Source of the DNA: Eubacterium sp. | GTDB lineage: Bacteria > Bacillota > Clostridia > Lachnospirales > Lachnospiraceae | Direction of reading: 5' to 3' | Length of the DNA: 64,000 bases | Assembly (NCBI GenBank): GCA_017619835.1 | Contig: JAFZRN010000008.1 | Coordinates: 89,490 to 153,489, forward strand | Shown: piece by piece, positions 35,239-45,362 of the stretch | How positions within the stretch are numbered: position 1 is the stretch's first letter | Layout: each line of letters begins with the position of its first letter | Notes under the pieces: model-generated | Seen by the model: the letters and a program-made list of their open reading frames with translations, nothing else | What the model was told of the DNA's origin: nothing | Database searches by the model: none | Made by a program: the position numbers and the translations under genes

Positions 35239-36528
35239 TCATTGACTTTCGGCCAGTTCGCCGAGATATTCGGCGAGCGGCTCGAGAGAAGCCATATCCG
35301 ATGGGATATCGGTACAGATAGATATTAAGTATGGAGAGGAGTTCTTCGGATAGATTATACCTGCGTCCGTTGTACTCCTGTATCCGTCTTCACAGATCCA
35401 CCCGGCCTTTGACTGGGTTTTTATTATTTTAGAGCCGTGAGGGCTGTCCGGTCCGAGAACAGAGTGGATGGCGGAGGCGTTGGGATTTTCCAGCCAGGTG
35501 CCGATAAGTGCTCCGGTCTCATCGGTGTTGTAATAAAAGTAGGCATGAACCCAGAACTTCGCCAGTTCTTCGGCAGTTATCCTGGGATAGTTATAGATAC
35601 ATACGTCGGTATTTACTCCGCATTCTTTACACCACGTTATGAATTCATTCCTTCCGTGACTTTGTCTTAAGTTGCTGTATTTTTCGTTATCGGATTCCAC
35701 GATTATGATTTTTAGTGTATTAGACATGTAATCAAGGACTTCGGGTCTTCCAACAATAAGGGAAGTGATGTAAGGAGCCTTGATACAGCTTGCGGAATAG
35801 TATTCTTTATCCACGTTATAAGAGATCCCGTTTCCGGAATTAAGATCCATCAAAACGAAGCTTATATTATATGCTCCGTTTCGAGAAGTGTCTTCAATTA
35901 TCTTATTCAGACGGCCACTTTGAGGACCGGTTAGATCAAAGGAACCGATCTTATTAAGAGTGTCCGGTGAGATATCAGAATCCGGACCATACTCCGATGA
36001 GATCGAGTTAACTCTCTCCATCAGATAATTCTCATCTCTGAGAGCTCCTTCGTTATCAAAGAGATAATAGGTATCTCCCATTTTGGTAAGACCGACTGAG
36101 GGCTCGCCGTTTTCCTTTATATAATATCTTTCCCCCTTATATTCCAGCCAGCCGGGGTCCGGACTTCCGTCTTTTCCGAGATAGAGACGGGTATTTTCAT
36201 ATTCTGCCCAGCCACTCATAAGATTACCTTCTTCATCAAAGTAACAGGTCTTTCCGTCTATCTCGTTTTTCCCTTTTACGTATGTTCCGTCTTCGTTAAA
36301 AAAGTAGGTCTTTCCATCCAGCTCCATCCATCCGGAGGCGGGGGTATGATCTTCGAGGATATATACTTCCTTTCCGTCCTCTATAAGCCAGCCGGTCGGA
36401 AGCTCCACAAGAAGAGTCTTTTTATATCCGGAAGACAATTTAAGCTGATTAAAAATGACAATAAAAACACCGGTACAAAGTACCAGCAGAATTATGATAA
36501 CAAACCATTTTAAACGTCTTAAAAACAT
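35239..36528 (-). CDS. Membrane-anchored serine hydrolase with GW-type wall-binding repeats
   Basis: A 429-residue protein and the only clear minus-strand gene of the window. One transmembrane helix lies near the N terminus (residues 9-26). Next come about five repeats of the choline-binding/GW type (GWLIEDGKEVYIL, GWMELDGKTYFF, GWAEYENTRLYL, GWLEYKGERYYI) at about residues 45-165. The C-terminal domain is a class A beta-lactamase-like serine hydrolase with the SCIK motif near 250. It probably acts at the cell wall. The ATG at 36528 is chosen because GTGAGG lies 9 nt upstream; GTG 36543 has no site. It is convergent with the foldase gene and divergent from the JetA operon. Confidence 0.82.
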   Translation of the reverse strand: MFLRRLKWFVIIILLVLCTGVFIVIFNQLKLSSGYKKTLLVELPTGWLIEDGKEVYILEDHTPASGWMELDGKTYFFNEDGTYVKGKNEIDGKTCYFDEEGNLMSGWAEYENTRLYLGKDGSPDPGWLEYKGERYYIKENGEPSVGLTKMGDTYYLFDNEGALRDENYLMERVNSISSEYGPDSDISPDTLNKIGSFDLTGPQSGRLNKIIEDTSRNGAYNISFVLMDLNSGNGISYNVDKEYYSASCIKAPYITSLIVGRPEVLDYMSNTLKIIIVESDNEKYSNLRQSHGRNEFITWCKECGVNTDVCIYNYPRITAEELAKFWVHAYFYYNTDETGALIGTWLENPNASAIHSVLGPDSPHGSKIIKTQSKAGWICEDGYRSTTDAGIIYPKNSSPYLISICTDIPSDMASLEPLAEYLGELAESQ

Positions 36529-36606
36529 ATCTTGGAACCTCACAATATAATTTATATTGCCATAGTCGAAAAATCAATACAAATCTTTAATCTCGCGGCA
36601 AATTGT

Positions 36607-36654: not shown

Positions 36655-38169
36655 ATGGCAGAAGAGTATATATTATTAGACGATATAATTAAAAATCATA
36701 CCGAGAGAATGATGAGTCTCAGGAAGTATTATCCATTCTTTTCCATCATGGACGGTTCGCTGAATCAGTTCAGGGGCGGAGAGTTTAAGAATGTCGATAT
36801 GGGTTACACGGTTCTTGCCATCTTAAGGTTCTTTATCAATGAAAACAGCTTCAATGATAAGCCTGTAACCTATAAGGAATATGAGACCTTCGTGAAGGGG
36901 ATATTAAGGGACGGCTTCGGGCTTGTCGAGGATACCGAGGAGCTTATCCGTTTTATCTTCGATAAGATACGTAATAACGGCCGCGCATTTGAGATGCCCT
37001 TCTATGATCCCGTTAATAAAGAGATGAAGCTCGCCCGTGTCAGACTGATAGACAGCGTTGTAAAAGAAGAGGATGTAGTCTACTCCATAACCGAGGAAGG
37101 AATAGAGTTTTATCTTTCCACGAAGGAGGTTAAGGATAAGAGCAACATTACTACCGAGCAGCTGCTTCTTGAAAAGCTTATCCGTTCGGAAAACTTCCGC
37201 GGAAGTATCGATGTTATCGAGAGGATAAATATCGAGGTAAGCCAGCTTGAAAAGGAGAGACGCGAAGTTATGCAGCTTCTTCTGAGTGATGTTCATGCCG
37301 GGGCCAAAGCAGTCGATGAATATATGGATAAGACCTCTGTATGGTTCAGTGAAGAGAGGAAATCATTTGCCAAAAACAGAGAGCTTGTGGATAAGGCTGT
37401 AAAGAAGGCGTCCTACTCGGGAGGTTCTCAGACCATAAAGGATGTGAACAGGCTGCAGAACATGCTGAAGCTTACGATAGAGAATCACAGCATGCTGATT
37501 GTAAGAGCAGCTGAGCTTTCCAAATTCTCCGACGAGATGATAAGAAGGAGCAGGACCAGAAGCTTAAAGAACTCATTTGACTTTGAAGGACTGTTAAGAA
37601 GATCCATGGATTCGGACAGACCGGACATCATGTCGTGGATTGTTGAACCCTTCCTGCAGATCAGAAGAGACAAAAGTCTTCCGATCTCCATTATAGACAG
37701 CATAGCGGTATCAACGCTGGATGACGGACTTAAGGGTGAAAGGAAGGAAGAGCTTAAGGCTGATCTGAATTACAGATACGATGATGAGATCTTAAGTGAG
37801 AATATCGGACAGAACTTTGCCAAGCTTTTCCTTGAACTTCTTAAAAGGATCAGAAAGTGGAAAAAGGTTACGCTCGAGGAATATCTTGCGATCCTCGAGG
37901 TTAAGTTCGGAAAGGATATATATAAGAACAGGGACCTCTATTCGTTCCTTATCCATCTTGCCGAAAAGGAGCATTATGATATAGGCGTCATGATCGAAAG
38001 TCAGGAGACCTTCCTTGAGGAGATCGTGGTTCATTATCTTGAGCCGGAGCTTTCGGATTATAAGGAGCTAAGCTTCAGGGTTGAATATGGCGAGAAGGAA
38101 ATAGAACTCACATTCGGTGAGGATGAGGTTGCGGCTCTCAGTGAGCTTACATTTGTTGAAGGAGACTGA
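36655..38169 (+). CDS. jetA: JetA-like subunit (Wadjet/MksF-type)
   Basis: A 504-residue protein resembling the JetA family of Wadjet systems (the kleisin-like MksF role). Near the N terminus, FFSIMDGSLNQFRGGEFKNVDMGYTVLAILRFF (residues 23-55) matches the winged-helix start of JetA. Long amphipathic helices follow (about 180-290), and a second helical domain ends in an acidic C terminus. There is no enzymatic motif. It is the first of four genes with tight spacing (jetB starts 2 nt after the stop), typical of JetA-JetB-JetC cassettes. Wadjet recognises and cleaves small circular plasmids with JetD, while chromosomal Mks complexes organise DNA. The family call is by resemblance and gene order. 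Confidence 0.75.
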   Translation: MAEEYILLDDIIKNHTERMMSLRKYYPFFSIMDGSLNQFRGGEFKNVDMGYTVLAILRFFINENSFNDKPVTYKEYETFVKGILRDGFGLVEDTEELIRFIFDKIRNNGRAFEMPFYDPVNKEMKLARVRLIDSVVKEEDVVYSITEEGIEFYLSTKEVKDKSNITTEQLLLEKLIRSENFRGSIDVIERINIEVSQLEKERREVMQLLLSDVHAGAKAVDEYMDKTSVWFSEERKSFAKNRELVDKAVKKASYSGGSQTIKDVNRLQNMLKLTIENHSMLIVRAAELSKFSDEMIRRSRTRSLKNSFDFEGLLRRSMDSDRPDIMSWIVEPFLQIRRDKSLPISIIDSIAVSTLDDGLKGERKEELKADLNYRYDDEILSENIGQNFAKLFLELLKRIRKWKKVTLEEYLAILEVKFGKDIYKNRDLYSFLIHLAEKEHYDIGVMIESQETFLEEIVVHYLEPELSDYKELSFRVEYGEKEIELTFGEDEVAALSELTFVEGD

Positions 38170-38170
38170 A

Positions 38171-38896
38171 ATGGAAAAAAGCCTTGAAAAAGCTTTGAAT
38201 ATATATACGGTACTTGCGACGGGAAAGAGTATATCTTCCGCCGACAAGGAGACCAGTGAACTTTATAATGCATTCTATGCCGATTCCGAGGTATATGACA
38301 TCACAATGTCCATAATCGATAAGCTGGGTCTTAAGCTTTATGAGCACAGTGATTCGATATTCGTGACAGCCGGTCACGGAAACAAGGTATTCGGTTATAC
38401 AAATGATGATCTTAAGAAGCGTCTCGGCTTAAGGCTTAACAGGGAGCTTTATCTCGTTTACTTCATCATTTACGAGGCACTGCTTCAGTTCTACAGATCT
38501 TCCGATACCTATCAGATCAAGGATTATATCAGGATAGATGAGCTTATCGAAGCCGTGACAAATGACTTGAAAAGCTTTACGACCAGTGTGACCACAGCAG
38601 GTGAGGATGAAGATGAAAAGGAGAAGGGCTCCTTCAGAGAGATAGCTATTCTCTGGGACAGTCTTCCTCCGATGATATCCGAGGATAAGGACAGGAACAA
38701 GGCATCCCGTGGTTCCAGGATGGGTTATACAAAGCTTGCCTCGAACTTTATGGGAAGCGAAGGCATATTCACCGCTGTTGATGACAGGCTTTATCCCACA
38801 CAGCGTTTCCATGCAATAGCAGAGAATTATTTTGAAGATAACGGAAGTCTTATCTATGAACAGTTAAGCGGAGGTAAAGAGGATGCCGAGCATTAA
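38171..38896 (+). CDS. jetB: JetB-like subunit (MksE/KITE-type)
   Basis: A 241-residue protein in the JetB position. It is a mostly helical winged-helix type protein with LYNAFYADSEVYDITMSIIDKLGLKLYEHSDSIFVTAGHG near the N terminus (about 28-65), a central region YLVYFIIYEALLQFY near 95-110 and a C-terminal segment KLASNFMGSEGIFTAVDDRLYPTQRF near 195-220. In Wadjet/Mks complexes this subunit dimerises on JetA. The ATG at 38171 has AAGGAGA upstream. It overlaps jetC by 14 nt, so translation is coupled. I recognise it mainly from context, with weak sequence signature. Confidence 0.7.
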   Translation: MEKSLEKALNIYTVLATGKSISSADKETSELYNAFYADSEVYDITMSIIDKLGLKLYEHSDSIFVTAGHGNKVFGYTNDDLKKRLGLRLNRELYLVYFIIYEALLQFYRSSDTYQIKDYIRIDELIEAVTNDLKSFTTSVTTAGEDEDEKEKGSFREIAILWDSLPPMISEDKDRNKASRGSRMGYTKLASNFMGSEGIFTAVDDRLYPTQRFHAIAENYFEDNGSLIYEQLSGGKEDAEH

Positions 38897-41800
38897 TCGT
38901 ATAAGAGTGAATAATGTTAAGTATAATTTCGGCACTCAGGGCTATGACGATTTTTCAATGAGAATGTACGGCCGTAACACACTCTACGACCTTGCCAACG
39001 GAGGTGGTAAGAGTGTTCTTATGCTGCTTCTGATGCAGAATCTGATTCCCAACTGTACTCTGGATGATAAGCAACCTATCGAGAAGCTGTTCAGGGATAA
39101 CAGCAATACAGTCATTCACTCACTGATCGAGTGGAAGCTGGATGATACCGATATCAAGGACGGTCTCAGATACATGACCACCGGCTTTGCCGCTAAGAAG
39201 GCCTCCGGCTCTGATGAGGAAAGAGAAGACGGCACTGCCCAGATCGAATACTTTAACTATGTTCTCTTCTACAGGGATTATAACAAAAACGATATAGTGA
39301 ACCTTCCGCTTGAGAAGGATAAGGAGCATATATCCTATAAAGCACTCAAAAATTATCTGCATGACCTTTCGAGAAATGATAAGAACATGCTTGTATATAT
39401 CTTTGACAGAAAGGGTGAGTATCAGAAGTTCATTGCCGAGTACGGACTTTTCGAAAGTCACTGGGAGATAATACGAGGCATCAATAAGACCGAGGGTCAT
39501 GTAAGAACATATTTTGAATCCAATTACAGGACCACGCGCCGCGTGATCGAGGATCTTCTCATAGAGGAGATAATCGAGAAGGCTTATATAACAAAGACCA
39601 GCCGCGAGACGGGAAAGACCGAAAGCACGGCAAAGCTTCTGCTTACCATTCAGGAAGAGCTTAAGACTCTCTCCGAAAAGAAGAAGGATATCAGGGTCTA
39701 CGATTATGAGAAGGAGCTGCTTTCACTTCTTACCGAGCGTATCGACTCCTTCATGGATCTTTATCAGAAAAAGGATGAGCTTTCGAAGGAGTTCGGCAGG
39801 ATATATGTAACGCTTGAAAGCGAGAAAAAGGGCAGGGAAGATAAGCTTACCCTTATGAGAGAAAAGCTTGATGAAGCCGAGACCGGAGTCAGCGAGGGCG
39901 AGATCAGACTCGAACTGATGAAGCTTCTTAAGGATATATATGAGAGCGAGGAGCTTGAGGAAAAACTTACTCTTAAAAAGGCCGAAGAGGCTGAGCTTAA
40001 GTCAAATATATCCATGCAGGATGCGCATCTTAGAGAAAAGATGGCGATAAGGGAATATCTGATCCTTAAGGATGCCGAAAATGAGCTTAAACGGCTTGAT
40101 GCATCGAGAGAGGCTGACAGAAAGGATGCCGATATCTATTCGGTTGTCGCAGGACTAAAGAGTCTGATATTCGGTGAGATCGAGAAGAATAATGCCGAGA
40201 TAGAGAAGACTTCGAAAACTCTTGAAGAGCTTACAACAGAGCATGATCTTAAGGATAAGGAGCGGTCCGAGGCATTTACCGAGATGGCCATCCTTGATAA
40301 CAGACGTGAATATATCGATGCCGACCTTAAGGGCCTCGATGAGAAATATAATGAGCTTCAGGACTCCATGTCCCGCCCGATTTTGGGAAATGCCGTCGAT
40401 ATCATTTCAAATCTTCAGAAGGAGATCGGTGGTCTCGAGGAGGATATCAGGGATAAGGAAGAGGAGATAAAGGGTCTTACCGAGAATATACAGAACCTTG
40501 AGAAGAATCTGGATTCTCTCAGGAACGAAAGAGAAAAGGCAGAGCTTCGCGATAAGGAGCTTTCCGAACTTCTCGTGGATTATGATGAGCTTAAGGAAAA
40601 GAAGAAGGCGGTAAGCCTTATCTATACACAAAGTCCCGATTCGGCGCTCTACGATGTGGAGGACAGCCTGATCGAGAGAAATGCTTCTCTTATAGTTAAA
40701 CTTCATGAGATGAAGCAGAGACTCGGTGAGTTTGAGAAGCGAGAGAATGATATAAGAAACGGAAGGCTTATGGCTCCAACCAAAGGAGTCGAAAAGCTTC
40801 AGGAGTATTTCACGACAAGGCACGGCGCAAGCTCCATGTTCGGAATGGACTATGTTTCAAGTCTTCCCGAAGATATGAAAAAGGAGCTTCTGACAAGACT
40901 TCCCGGAATCGCTTACGGTCTCGTGGTGGATGATCTTGATATACTCATGCAGGATCCCGGGCTCAGCGAGCTTGATATTGATGAGGAAGTCATCCTTTAC
41001 GATAAGGAGAGCCTTAATGAAGCAAGGATCGGCGATGAGGAAGGGATCGGTTATGTAAGGCATGATAAGAACTTCTATCTTGATCTTTCTACAAGACAGT
41101 CGAGACTGAATCTTTTGGGTGATGAAATGAGTCTTCTTACGGAAGATATCAGAAGCACCGAGTCCATGCTGGATACACTGAAAGAGGATATGGACTTTAT
41201 CCACCTCTACATAGATAAGGGCTATGACAGTCTGGAAGAGGATCTTGCCCGGACGAAGGATAAGCTTAAGACTCTTGATAAGGATATTGAAAAAGCCGAG
41301 AAGCTCAGGAATGAGTATTCGGCAAAGCTTTCATCCTCAAAGGATATGGTTGAGGAATATACCGGTGAGATAGAAGTAAGGCTGAAGGATATATCAGTAC
41401 TTCATGAGATAGCCGGAGCTGACGACGACATTTCCAGACTTAAAAAGGAAAAGATAGAGATATCCGAAAAGAGAAAGAGGCTGGAAGCTCTTCTTAAAAA
41501 TGCAGAGGATAAGCTGCAATCACTCGAAATGACGAGACTTACTCTTCAGGATAAGATAAGATCGCTTGAGGCTTCTTCCGCTTCTCTTAATGCAAAATGG
41601 GAAAATAGATATGCTATGTACTATGTCGAGGGTACTCACTTTGAAAAAATGAGTGGCGACATGGGTGAGCTGGAGGCAATGTTCGAAAGATCTCTCGGAG
41701 ATGTATCCGAAGGCAGGATGTCGCTTGAAAAAGAGAAGCTCTTAAGAGACACTCTTACCGGTACCATCGAGAGACAGAAGAGATCGATAGGTGAGCTTGG

Positions 41801-43295
41801 TATTGCGCTTGAAGATCTTGACGAGCAGGATGAAAACGGTACTCTGGTGAGTCCGGGTGATGAGCTTATCGAAGAGATAAGACGTAACCTTAAAGCGCTT
41901 CAGGATAAGAGCATATCGCTGGATAAAAACGTCCGTGAGAGCGAGGCATCGCTTTCGAGGATAGCAGGAAGCATAGATTATGCGAGAAGAAGATTTGCCG
42001 AAAGATTCGGAGAAGAAAAGCTTTCGCTTCTTGAAGATATAAAGGCAGAGATGGAGGCCCGCAGCGAAAAGGGAATCGAGGAACATATAAGAGAGGCTTC
42101 CCAGATACTTTCTCATAAGAAAGAAGAGAGAGATACTCTTAAGGATAAGCTGAGTCAGTTCCTCAGCGAAGAAAAGGGTAATGAAGATATCTTAAGACTT
42201 TCGGAGAGGATAGTTGAATCTGATAAGGTCGATCTTAAGGAGCTCACCTCACTTGATGATGTGAAGCAGCTTAGAGAAAACTTTGACCAGATGCTCCTCA
42301 GCCACGATAAGCTTCTTAAGGATATCGACAGGGCTAAGGCTGACATGACTAAGGTTAAGCTCAAGGTTTATGAATCGCTTACCGAGATGAACCGTAATGA
42401 GCTTGCCGCATCCGTAAGGGATGACGTATACAGTCCGGGAACTCTGGAGGAGGCCCAGTCTCTTACAGAGAGACTGAGAGAGGTTATAGATATTATAACA
42501 CTCGAAAAGGACAGGCTCGAGAAGAGTCTCGTAAGCATGCAGCAGCTTAAGGATAACTTTATCGAGGAATGTATCGAGAGATGCCTGGATGTAAGAAGTG
42601 AGCTTGATAAGCTTACCAAGCTTTCAGAGATCACGATGGATAATGATAAGGTCCAGATGATCAGACTTACCATCCCGTACGTTAAGGACGAATTCATCAA
42701 GGACAGAATGTCCGAATACATCGATCAGATAGTAGCCGAGATGGATTCCAAGGAAACCGATAACGAGATGCAGAAGTTCCTGAATGCGAGCCTTTCCATG
42801 AAGAAGCTTTTCTCGGTCATCGTAACCGATATGTCCAAGATAAAACTCTTGCTTTATAAGAGAGAAAGAATAAAGGAACAGAGCAGGTATCTGAAATATG
42901 AGGAGGCGGTAGGAAGTACCGGCCAGTCCCAGGGTATCTATATTCAGTTCCTGATATCCATAATCAATTATATTGCGGGAATGTATTCCACAGCTGATAC
43001 CGAAAAACGTTCGAAGACACTTTTCATCGATAACCCATTTGGTGCAGCGAAGGATATCTATATATGGGAGCCGATATTCGGGCTTCTTAAAGAGAACAAC
43101 TGTCAGCTCATCGTACCTGCCCGTGGCGCTACGCCTGAGATAACGGGACGATTCGATATCAATTATGTGCTTGGTCAGCAGATGACCGGCAAGAGGACGA
43201 CTACGGTTGTTACAAGCTTTACCAGCAGGACAAAGGGTGAAGAGCTTGAGTATAAGGAACTTGATTACGAGCAGCAGTCCTTTGATTTCATCTGA
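38883..43295 (+). CDS. jetC: JetC-like SMC ATPase (MksB-type)
   Basis: A 1470-residue SMC-like ATPase. The N-terminal head has RIRVNNVKYNFGT and Walker A ANGGGKSV (residues 38-45). Long coiled coils rich in Glu/Lys/Leu run from about 265 to 590 and again from 700 to 1300, separated by a hinge-like segment near 600-680. The C-terminal head has the ABC-signature-like GSTGQSQGIYIQFL near 1340 and Walker B KTLFIDNPFG near 1378. A DN at the Walker B position is seen where canonical SMC proteins have DE. The length and layout fit JetC/MksB, which forms a DNA-extruding complex with JetA and JetB. It overlaps jetB by 14 nt. Confidence 0.85.
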   Translation: MPSINRIRVNNVKYNFGTQGYDDFSMRMYGRNTLYDLANGGGKSVLMLLLMQNLIPNCTLDDKQPIEKLFRDNSNTVIHSLIEWKLDDTDIKDGLRYMTTGFAAKKASGSDEEREDGTAQIEYFNYVLFYRDYNKNDIVNLPLEKDKEHISYKALKNYLHDLSRNDKNMLVYIFDRKGEYQKFIAEYGLFESHWEIIRGINKTEGHVRTYFESNYRTTRRVIEDLLIEEIIEKAYITKTSRETGKTESTAKLLLTIQEELKTLSEKKKDIRVYDYEKELLSLLTERIDSFMDLYQKKDELSKEFGRIYVTLESEKKGREDKLTLMREKLDEAETGVSEGEIRLELMKLLKDIYESEELEEKLTLKKAEEAELKSNISMQDAHLREKMAIREYLILKDAENELKRLDASREADRKDADIYSVVAGLKSLIFGEIEKNNAEIEKTSKTLEELTTEHDLKDKERSEAFTEMAILDNRREYIDADLKGLDEKYNELQDSMSRPILGNAVDIISNLQKEIGGLEEDIRDKEEEIKGLTENIQNLEKNLDSLRNEREKAELRDKELSELLVDYDELKEKKKAVSLIYTQSPDSALYDVEDSLIERNASLIVKLHEMKQRLGEFEKRENDIRNGRLMAPTKGVEKLQEYFTTRHGASSMFGMDYVSSLPEDMKKELLTRLPGIAYGLVVDDLDILMQDPGLSELDIDEEVILYDKESLNEARIGDEEGIGYVRHDKNFYLDLSTRQSRLNLLGDEMSLLTEDIRSTESMLDTLKEDMDFIHLYIDKGYDSLEEDLARTKDKLKTLDKDIEKAEKLRNEYSAKLSSSKDMVEEYTGEIEVRLKDISVLHEIAGADDDISRLKKEKIEISEKRKRLEALLKNAEDKLQSLEMTRLTLQDKIRSLEASSASLNAKWENRYAMYYVEGTHFEKMSGDMGELEAMFERSLGDVSEGRMSLEKEKLLRDTLTGTIERQKRSIGELGIALEDLDEQDENGTLVSPGDELIEEIRRNLKALQDKSISLDKNVRESEASLSRIAGSIDYARRRFAERFGEEKLSLLEDIKAEMEARSEKGIEEHIREASQILSHKKEERDTLKDKLSQFLSEEKGNEDILRLSERIVESDKVDLKELTSLDDVKQLRENFDQMLLSHDKLLKDIDRAKADMTKVKLKVYESLTEMNRNELAASVRDDVYSPGTLEEAQSLTERLREVIDIITLEKDRLEKSLVSMQQLKDNFIEECIERCLDVRSELDKLTKLSEITMDNDKVQMIRLTIPYVKDEFIKDRMSEYIDQIVAEMDSKETDNEMQKFLNASLSMKKLFSVIVTDMSKIKLLLYKRERIKEQSRYLKYEEAVGSTGQSQGIYIQFLISIINYIAGMYSTADTEKRSKTLFIDNPFGAAKDIYIWEPIFGLLKENNCQLIVPARGATPEITGRFDINYVLGQQMTGKRTTTVVTSFTSRTKGEELEYKELDYEQQSFDFI

Positions 43296-43311
43296 CATTT
43301 GAAGGAAGAGT

Positions 43312-44178
43312 ATGTACAGAATAGAAAGTTCGACAATTTTAACACCTCAGAACGGGCTGAATATATATAGGGGACGCACGCATGACTCTGTCACACTGAC
43401 GGAGATCCGGGGGCATGATCCTATGGATATCGGCATTAAATATGATGCGCCCGAGCTTCTTGAAGGAACTCTGAGGACAAGGCGTTCGACCTGTATGATC
43501 CTTATGGGCAATCTGGGAGATCCTTATAACGATATCGAAAAAGAACTCGAGCTTACCAGAAGCTGCCTTAAGATAATCGAGAATAATGATTACGGTGTCT
43601 GCATCAGCACTCATCAGTCGCTTATCTTAAGAGATATGGATGTTCTTTCGGGTATTGCGGCCAAGACAAAATGCGTTGTTGATATACCGATTCCGACTCT
43701 TGATGAAATAATACTTGAGAAGCTTGAAGGAAGTGATACAATATCTGTCGGTGACAGATTAGGTCTTGTAAAGAATTTGAGTGAAAAAGGGATCGATGTT
43801 GTCGTGGATATATATCCGGTGATCCCATTTGTAAATGACTCTCTGAAGGATTTAAATAGCCTTGTGAAAACTATTCTCGAATATGATATCCGGGCGATAG
43901 ATCTAAGAGACTTAAGGCTCAGCATATCCAAAAACACGAAGCGTTTCTTTGAAACGGCTTTTGAAGAGAGATTCCCGGAACAATTTAAGGAATATATGGA
44001 TTCGGGCTTAAACGAAAGCAGTGACATCACTGCACGAAATGATAAACAGATGATCCGTGACCTTGACAAAATGATAAAACCCCACAAGGTCATGTATGAT
44101 ACAAGACAGATAAAACTGTGGAGACGACAATATGAGAATAAGACCACAGGAAAACAAATGACTATTCCATTTGAATAA
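43312..44178 (+). CDS. Spore-photolyase-like radical-SAM homologue lacking cluster cysteines
   Basis: A 288-residue protein collinear with SPL-family radical-SAM proteins of Clostridia: N-terminal STILTPQNGLNIYRG, then DAPELLEGTLRTRRS near 45, MGNLGDPYNDIEKELELTR near 64-82, LILRDMDVL near 105, KCVVDIPIPTLDE near 120 and a C-terminal tail ending MTIPFE. In the family the next bases encode a C-x3-C-x2-C cluster motif. Here the corresponding residues are Arg22, Ser26 and Leu29, so no 4Fe-4S/SAM centre can form. The frame is intact. It follows jetC by 17 nt, where Wadjet systems usually have jetD, and shows no Toprim or DUF2220/DUF3322 signature. The function is unknown. Confidence 0.7.
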   Translation: MYRIESSTILTPQNGLNIYRGRTHDSVTLTEIRGHDPMDIGIKYDAPELLEGTLRTRRSTCMILMGNLGDPYNDIEKELELTRSCLKIIENNDYGVCISTHQSLILRDMDVLSGIAAKTKCVVDIPIPTLDEIILEKLEGSDTISVGDRLGLVKNLSEKGIDVVVDIYPVIPFVNDSLKDLNSLVKTILEYDIRAIDLRDLRLSISKNTKRFFETAFEERFPEQFKEYMDSGLNESSDITARNDKQMIRDLDKMIKPHKVMYDTRQIKLWRRQYENKTTGKQMTIPFE

Positions 44179-44189
44179 AGGAGGAAAAA

Positions 44190-45362
44190 ATGGACTACAA
44201 TCAGGCAAGCTTAAAGATGCATGAGGAAAATCAGGGAAAACTCGAGGTAAACCTCAAGGTTCCCGTAGAGACAAAAGAGGATCTTTCCACCGCCTATACC
44301 CCGGGCGTAGCAGAGCCCTGCAGGAAGATCGCAGAGAATCCGGATGATGTGTATAAATACACTCTTAAGGCCAACACGGTAGCGGTAGTATCAGACGGAA
44401 CAGCTGTTCTCGGACTCGGAGACATCGGTCCCCTTGCGGCCATTCCGGTAATGGAAGGTAAATCAGTATTATTCAAGAGATTCGGAAACGTGGATGCATT
44501 TCCAATCTGCATTGACACAAAGGATACAGACGAGATAGTTGAGACCGTAAAGAGACTTGCTCCTTCCTTCGGAGGAATCAATCTTGAGGATATATCCGCT
44601 CCCAGATGCTTCGAGGTAGAGGCAAGACTTAAGGAAGAACTGGATATCCCCGTATTCCATGATGACCAGCATGGAACGGCAATCGTTGTTGCCGCAGGTC
44701 TTACAAATGCACTCAAGATAGTTAAGAAAGAGTGGAAGGATGTAAGTGCCGTGATAAGCGGTGCAGGTTCTGCCGGCATCTCGATCTGTAAGCTCCTTCA
44801 GAGCTTTGGTATCGGAAATGTTGTCCTTGTCGACAGTCAGGGAGCGCTTGTGGATGGTGATCCGAGACTTAATCCCGCCAAGCAGGAGATCGCAGCTGTT
44901 ACGAATAAAGATAAAGAGAGCGGAAGCCTTGCCGATGTAATAAAGGGTAAGGATGTATTCATTGGTGTATCCGCTCCCGGAATCGTTACCTCCGAGATGG
45001 TAAGAAGCATGGCTTCCGATCCTATCGTATTTGCCATGGCTAATCCCACACCCGAGATCATGCCGGATGAGGCAAAGGCAGGCGGTGCAAGGATAATCGC
45101 AACAGGCCGTTCGGATTTCCCTAATCAGATCAATAACGTACTTGTATTCCCGGGAATCTTCAGAGGTGCCCTCGATGCAAGAGCAAGAGCTATAACCGAA
45201 CCGATGAAGGAAGCTGCTGCAAGAGCTATAGCTTCCATCGTTACGGAAGATGAGCTTTCAGAGGAATACATCATCCCCGATGCATTTAACGAGAAGGTTG
45301 CAAAGGTGGTTGCAAAGGCAGTTGCCGATGAGGCACGCCGCAGTAATGTAGCAAGAGTTTAA
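44190..45362 (+). CDS. NAD(P)-dependent malic enzyme
   Basis: A 390-residue malic enzyme of the short bacterial type, converting malate to pyruvate and CO2 with reduction of NAD or NADP. The N-terminal domain has the catalytic tyrosine segment DLSTAYTPGVAEPC near 34 and NTVAVVSDGTAVLGLGDIGPLA near 59-80. The metal-binding part is EDISAPRCFEVE near 133 and VFHDDQHGTAIV near 155. The Rossmann domain begins at VISGAGSAGISICKLL near 190. The ATG follows AAAGGAGG, only 11 nt after the preceding gene, so it could be read through from the Jet operon. The next gene starts 11 nt later. Coenzyme choice cannot be told. Confidence 0.94.
   Translation: MDYNQASLKMHEENQGKLEVNLKVPVETKEDLSTAYTPGVAEPCRKIAENPDDVYKYTLKANTVAVVSDGTAVLGLGDIGPLAAIPVMEGKSVLFKRFGNVDAFPICIDTKDTDEIVETVKRLAPSFGGINLEDISAPRCFEVEARLKEELDIPVFHDDQHGTAIVVAAGLTNALKIVKKEWKDVSAVISGAGSAGISICKLLQSFGIGNVVLVDSQGALVDGDPRLNPAKQEIAAVTNKDKESGSLADVIKGKDVFIGVSAPGIVTSEMVRSMASDPIVFAMANPTPEIMPDEAKAGGARIIATGRSDFPNQINNVLVFPGIFRGALDARARAITEPMKEAAARAIASIVTEDELSEEYIIPDAFNEKVAKVVAKAVADEARRSNVARV

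Follow-up and report, generated by a model that had tools for sequence, protein, structure and literature searches.

A JetD-less Wadjet type III-like SMC operon followed by a cysteine-less spore photoproduct lyase homologue in Lachnospiraceae: a candidate accessory chromosomal SMC complex

Introduction

What does a Wadjet-like SMC operon do when it has no JetD and a different gene follows jetC? This question was raised by a locus in the window, that is, the whole stretch of 64,000 nucleotides from Eubacterium sp. analysed here. In this locus, homologues of jetA, jetB and jetC are followed by a fourth gene for a protein with the fold of spore photoproduct lyase (SPL) in which the cysteines of the radical-SAM cluster are missing. 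The origin and relationships of defence SMCs and housekeeping condensins are described as unresolved in a review (PMC10586767). An earlier note on this DNA had offered two readings of the operon, a nuclease-free SMC complex for chromosome organisation and a new defence system in which the fourth protein takes the place of JetD.

In this study, we favoured a form of the first reading, at a probability of roughly 0.42: JetABC would be an accessory SMC complex without JetD that works on the cell's own DNA, the fourth protein would be non-catalytic and would help JetABC, and both would dock on the beta sliding clamp (DnaN).

Genes of the Operon

The coordinates of the operon and its motifs are listed in Table 1. 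PADLOC assigned the first three genes to JetA3, JetB3 and JetC3, in the same order as in Wadjet type III, and the jetA-jetB-jetC set described in the earlier note was thus recovered as type III-like. Wadjet type III has JetD, whereas in the window operon it is absent and an SPL-fold gene follows jetC instead. The missing jetD, also claimed before, was borne out: there was no JetD_C (PF09983) match in the operon or anywhere in its own assembly, which is 93% complete. The fourth gene was confirmed as an intact, Cys-less SPL homologue.

Table 1. Features of the operon in the window and its downstream neighbour.
Feature	Position	Strand	Remarks
jetA3-like kleisin gene	36655..38169	+	504 aa; PADLOC JetA3, E 1e-168
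jetB3-like KITE gene	38171..38896	+	PADLOC JetB3, E 2.8e-82; Pfam DUF6063, 4.1e-42; ATG start is our own reading
jetC3-like SMC gene	38883..43295	+	1470 aa; PADLOC JetC3, 1450.7 bits
Walker A of JetC, NGGGKS	38997..39014	+	seen when 32 JetC proteins were aligned
C-terminal QQSFDF of JetC, clamp-binding-motif-like	43272..43289	+	loose pattern only; not the published form
Cys-less SPL-fold (pseudo-radical-SAM) gene, the fourth gene	43312..44178	+	288 aa
Degenerate CX3CX2C of the fourth protein	43375..43398	+	positions 22, 26 and 29 are R, S and L
C-terminal QMTIPF of the fourth protein, clamp-binding-motif-like	44155..44172	+	relaxed pattern; I at position 4
Malic enzyme gene	44190..45362	+	Pfam malic, 7e-34; syntenic downstream neighbour, possibly on the same transcript

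The structure model of JetA was of low confidence (pLDDT 74.0, pTM 0.33), and its best PDB match was MukF (E 2.6e-4, with low TM-scores). A sequence search of the PDB gave no match for JetC and only chance-like matches for the fourth protein. A degenerate Walker B in JetC was considered and ruled out, because DNPF is common to the JetD-linked homologues. A consensus scan from jetC to the malic enzyme gene found no plus-strand terminator, which proves little. Upstream of jetA, a divergent gene (35239-36543, minus strand) encodes choline-binding repeats and a Beta-lactamase2 domain.

The MksBEF and MukBEF condensins are kleisin-KITE-SMC sets without a nuclease, as is the set in the window; the differences are that the window JetC is of the JetC3 type by PADLOC and that an extra SPL-like gene is present. 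A true Smc is also encoded in the window's own genome (1085 bits). The complex fits an MksBEF-like course: no nuclease, core-genome neighbours, frequent occurrence in the genus, and a place beside true Smc.

Distribution of JetC and JetD

JetC was searched for in 150 genera, and 34 genomes matched, 22 of them at more than 400 bits, the cut-off that we set for close loci. JetD_C was found on the JetC contig in none of these 22 genera. Nine of the 22 close loci follow dnaX-ybaB-recR (two of the nine with one ORF between; one of the sets was typed by NCBIfam). Ten of the 12 weaker matches were examined (one of the 12 is a match of 95 residues), and at all ten of these distant loci the gene immediately upstream of jetA belongs to one and the same cluster; the three members of the cluster that were tested were all JetD3. 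In the order, 33 of 295 genomes matched JetC, and, beyond the window, 400 bits were exceeded in three genomes from the window's family and in G212, from a different one. Carriage of JetC by plasmids or phages was rejected: a search of 72,556 plasmids gave one weak match (27.5% identity over 14%), and a search of 50,697 phages gave no match.

The JetD-free close loci, with nine beside dnaX-ybaB-recR, set against the JetD-type genes at the distant loci, favour a chromosomal accessory SMC over plasmid defence. The nuclease-free part of the earlier chromosome reading and its core-gene context therefore stand, and this reading, with a putative chromosome role, fits best. That note had also held that a jetD elsewhere in related genomes, complementing the operon, would speak against its proposal. 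JetD_C matches do occur in 11 of the 61 genomes surveyed in the window's genus, but never beside this jetC: they lie on another contig or, in G155, 1.4 Mb from jetC.

The proposal that the fourth gene stands in for jetD was not supported. An SPL gene follows jetC at only three of the 22 close loci (the window, G040 and G129); one other locus, that of G115, is truncated at the end of jetC, and that of G092 just upstream of jetB. In other genera the slot holds an enzyme with its cysteines intact, and within the genus the Cys-less gene is kept in five genomes that have no jetC match. Because of this persistence, it is not a strict JetD substitute.

At 14 of the 22 close loci (L086-L099), a protein of 732-1159 aa is encoded within two genes after jetC. 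Pfam gave TPR repeats, and TPR only, in the two that were tested, whereas by eye we read a degenerate AAA-like C-terminus. This protein is a candidate partner of the JetD-free complex; in the window's genus, a search for it gave weak partial matches only.

The Fourth Gene in the Genus

SPL-type matches were present in 59 of the 61 genomes of the genus, and JetC matches in 54. Of the 58 regions fetched, two contained a canonical SPL and no fourth gene, and a third contained a fragment at the end of its contig, so that with the window 56 full-length fourth genes were available. The CX3CX2C motif was absent from all 56. In 51 of the 56 genomes jetC lies directly upstream (for L176 and L189 as judged from match coordinates), and 38 of the 48 gaps measured were no longer than 60 nt. 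Named records matching these genomes are rumen Lachnospiraceae, for example LC2019, NE2001, AC2031 and AC2029.

Five genomes (G152, G166, G184, G185 and G208) carry the fourth gene with no JetC match, and there it adjoins the malic enzyme gene or another gene; in G152 the genes upstream encode a PP-loop protein, a glycosidase, an aldolase and PEP carboxykinase. G181, G200 and G209 gave partial JetC matches only, and a full linked fourth gene was not found in them. JetC is missing from seven of the 61 genomes and is therefore not essential. Between the SPL gene and the malic enzyme gene, sister genera and part of the genus encode a protein of about 91 aa (L081:6051-6326, L083:11360-11635, L195:6848-7123); the one tested had no Pfam match.

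These distributions bear on the reading that the operon is a new plasmid- or phage-defence system with the pseudo-SPL protein as effector or sensor replacing JetD. The homology of JetABC to a defence system and the jetC-linked position of the fourth gene speak for it, but the operon is near-universal and syntenic in the genus with core-genome neighbours, and its patchiness, at seven of 61 genomes without JetC, is milder than expected of defence. Most JetD-less relatives have no fourth gene, the gene is kept without jetC, and no catalytic site was recognised in its protein. We therefore consider defence improbable, and the earlier proposal of it is disfavoured by the synteny, the core neighbours and the retention without jetC.

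A more serious competitor, which we hold to be quite possible although short of even odds, is that the SMC complex is a nuclease-free condensin and the fourth gene has a separate role, for example as a descendant of a repair enzyme that binds DNA or nucleotides, being merely co-transcribed with jetABC and the malic enzyme gene. Such a role would explain the five genomes that keep the Cys-less gene without jetC, one pair of which has a dN/dS of 0.032, and it agrees with the three of 22 close loci that have the gene, most other genera being without it. Canonical SPLs without jetC also have similar tails (14 of 21; see below). Against it stands the linkage: the SPL gene comes directly after jetC in the 51 genomes above and at seven named loci with intact motif, usually within 60 nt, a closer coupling than two unrelated functions would lead one to expect. 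The joint function of JetABC and the fourth protein is in turn unproven, because the fourth gene outlives jetC in five genomes and JetC occurs mostly without the fourth gene elsewhere.

Fold, Residues and Selection of the Fourth Protein

The structure model supports an SPL fold for the fourth protein. At the cluster cysteine positions, the window protein has R22, S26 and L29. In an alignment of 22 proteins, 20 of them Cys-less, 27 columns were invariant, including G66, D70-P71-Y72, G95, R107, D108 and the C-terminal R-x-Y-x-N-x-x-x-G-x-Q. The fold, G66, DPY and the R107-D108 core are shared with spore photoproduct lyase and the PA0069-type radical SAM proteins; the fourth protein differs from these in having no CX3CX2C across the genus, in its linkage to jetC, and in the family-specific C-terminal RxYxNxxxGxQ. 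K101 and S102, which we take to be SAM-site residues, are invariant in 21 canonical SPLs and lost in the Cys-less proteins.

Purifying selection was evident. In 23 chosen close pairs, the dN/dS of the fourth gene was 0.016-0.137 in 21, and two pairs, including the window's own, were saturated; many dS values exceed 1 and pairs share members, and the nine pairs with dS below 1 give 0.053-0.137. JetC values were of like order in the same pairs. The 0.032 mentioned above came from the sole jetC-less pair with a value. The notion that the fourth gene is what remains of an SPL enzyme in decay, to which the loss of the cluster cysteines and of many canonical residues might have pointed, is hardly credible given a full frame in 56 copies, these ratios and the 27 invariant columns, and decay was ruled out. 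The Cys-less protein is therefore maintained for a function independent of the cluster, and, since K101 and S102 are lost, this function probably needs no SAM either.

The protein might still be an enzyme with a chemistry that requires no Fe-S cluster. The invariance of DPY 70-72, G95, R107 and D108 is more than a bare scaffold may need; however, of the columns invariant in canonical SPLs, the Cys-less set keeps only three of the 20 that lie within the cluster loop and 31 of the 89 outside it, with K101 and S102 among the losses, and we judged this alternative quite improbable. A concentration of residue loss in the cluster loop was not significant within the Cys-less set (3/20 vs 31/89, p 0.11).

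Between L190 and L192 (G163 and G194), dS was 0.03 for JetA and 0.02 for JetB, and 0.89 for the fourth gene. This contrast hints at possible recombination inside the operon.

Clamp-Motif-Like C-Terminal Tails

The clamp-binding motif is given as Q-phi-x-[LM][FL] or Q-phi-x-[LM]-x-[FL] in a review (PMC11139829). Tails were scored in the last 14 residues, in the published form, in a relaxed pattern that also allows I or F at position 4, and in a looser pattern; the patterns beyond the published form were set after the tails had been seen, and the rows are related. The published form was found in 17 of 54 Cys-less fourth proteins, two of 66 close JetC and four of ten JetD-linked JetC, and neither window tail, of JetC or of the fourth protein, matches it. 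With the relaxed pattern the counts were 40 of 54 Cys-less fourth proteins, 0 of two Cys-intact sisters, 14 of 21 canonical SPLs, two of 66 close JetC, 0 of ten distant JetC and 0 of 545 control ORFs. The looser pattern matched 46 of 54, 0 of two, 19 of 21, 65 of 66, 10 of 10 and eight of 545 in the same sets, and none of 68 JetA or 71 JetB. Among 27 clusters of at least five members, only JetC (79/81) and SPL (53/64) reach one half with this pattern. In the model of the fourth protein, the tail is the least ordered end (pLDDT 59).

The type III-like JetC of other families of the order (L308, L311, L312, L327, L334-L353), taken as the longest ORF at each of 24 loci, several being near-copies, ends in tails such as QLSLF, QLDLF, QLNLF, QMDLF and QIGLF. 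Across all 24 loci the published form was present in 15 and the looser one in 20; among the 20 longest ORFs with both Walker motifs, the counts were 14 and 19. The motif therefore stands out most clearly beyond the window's clade, and it is present in JetD-linked JetC as well, so that such tails are no marker of a housekeeping role. Cys-intact SPL-like proteins also often end in QLSLF-like tails (L110, L115, L008, L009, L012, L021 and others). A DinB-like protein of the same genome was set aside as a yardstick for the motif, its internal QYDIF being an unverified reading by eye.

In the open-access literature, Wadjet was not found together with DnaN, nor MksB with the beta clamp. Wadjet and the sliding clamp were found together in a virus-host study, and among the papers listed for Wadjet with pseudoenzyme or radical SAM nothing on this operon was seen. 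As described in one study (PMC4929162), archaeal NreB-SplB pairs place an SplB-like gene beside a family with a possible clamp (PCNA) motif; that case differs in being archaeal, in having PCNA where DnaN is proposed here and in its unrelated partner, and the passages on it mention no cysteine loss.

Proposed Mechanism

We propose that a complex of the Wadjet III or MksBEF type, having no JetD, became a fixed part of the chromosome in a lineage of Lachnospiraceae, where it would act, alongside the ordinary Smc, on DNA of the cell itself. The SPL fold is kept in the fourth protein, which is unable to bind a radical-SAM cluster; selection retains it, most likely as a non-catalytic DNA-binding or adaptor protein. 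The tails of JetC and the fourth protein may dock on DnaN; our best guess, from the tail sequences, is that such docking would give the two a shared site of action, and the lack of the published form in both window tails lowers its odds slightly. The docked complex might then work on DNA that has just been replicated, helping to fold, segregate or repair it, and the fourth protein would assist JetABC where both are present.

A broader proposal, which we regard as rather unlikely, is that type III Wadjet systems as a whole use a C-terminal QLxLF-type peptide of JetC to dock on the bacterial sliding clamp, which would couple these SMC motors to replication, and that in Lachnospiraceae a plasmid-cutting system that had lost JetD thereby turned into a replication-coupled chromosomal condensin, with a clamp-binding but catalytically dead SPL protein as its adaptor. 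Clamp docking, if real, would tie Wadjet-type SMC machines to the copying of DNA. With a JetD-free clade often near replication and recombination genes and with the JetC tails at hand, how Wadjet finds its DNA and the turnover from defence system to condensin become directly testable.

Origin of the Cysteine Loss

A scan of named loci yielded 77 SPL ORFs; it is biased, since a single QNG pattern served as its seed and the best 80 of 171 loci were retained. Seven follow jetC with the motif intact (UBA1760, RUG655, Eubacterium sp. MSJ-21, UBA5902, RGIG6709, RGIG5011 and RGIG3763; G040 is a further case) and 34 follow jetC without the motif, while 32 intact and four Cys-less ORFs are not placed after jetC. 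Because other Lachnospiraceae have the jetC-SPL arrangement with the motif intact, the cysteine loss is derived. In a tree of 78 proteins, rooted for drawing only, the Cys-intact proteins of G040 and G129 grouped with canonical SPLs (support 90/72, which is not strong), apart from the Cys-less ones. Most likely, the slot was first occupied by an intact SPL-type enzyme, from which the fourth protein of this genus arose as a pseudoenzyme. The genus-wide Cys-less SPL, with Cys-intact relatives in the same slot, makes a clear case of an enzyme turned pseudoenzyme. In an SPL-like protein of Fusobacterium naviforme (L291:2864-3742), whose three upstream ORFs do not include jetC, two of the three cluster cysteines are also lost, perhaps independently.
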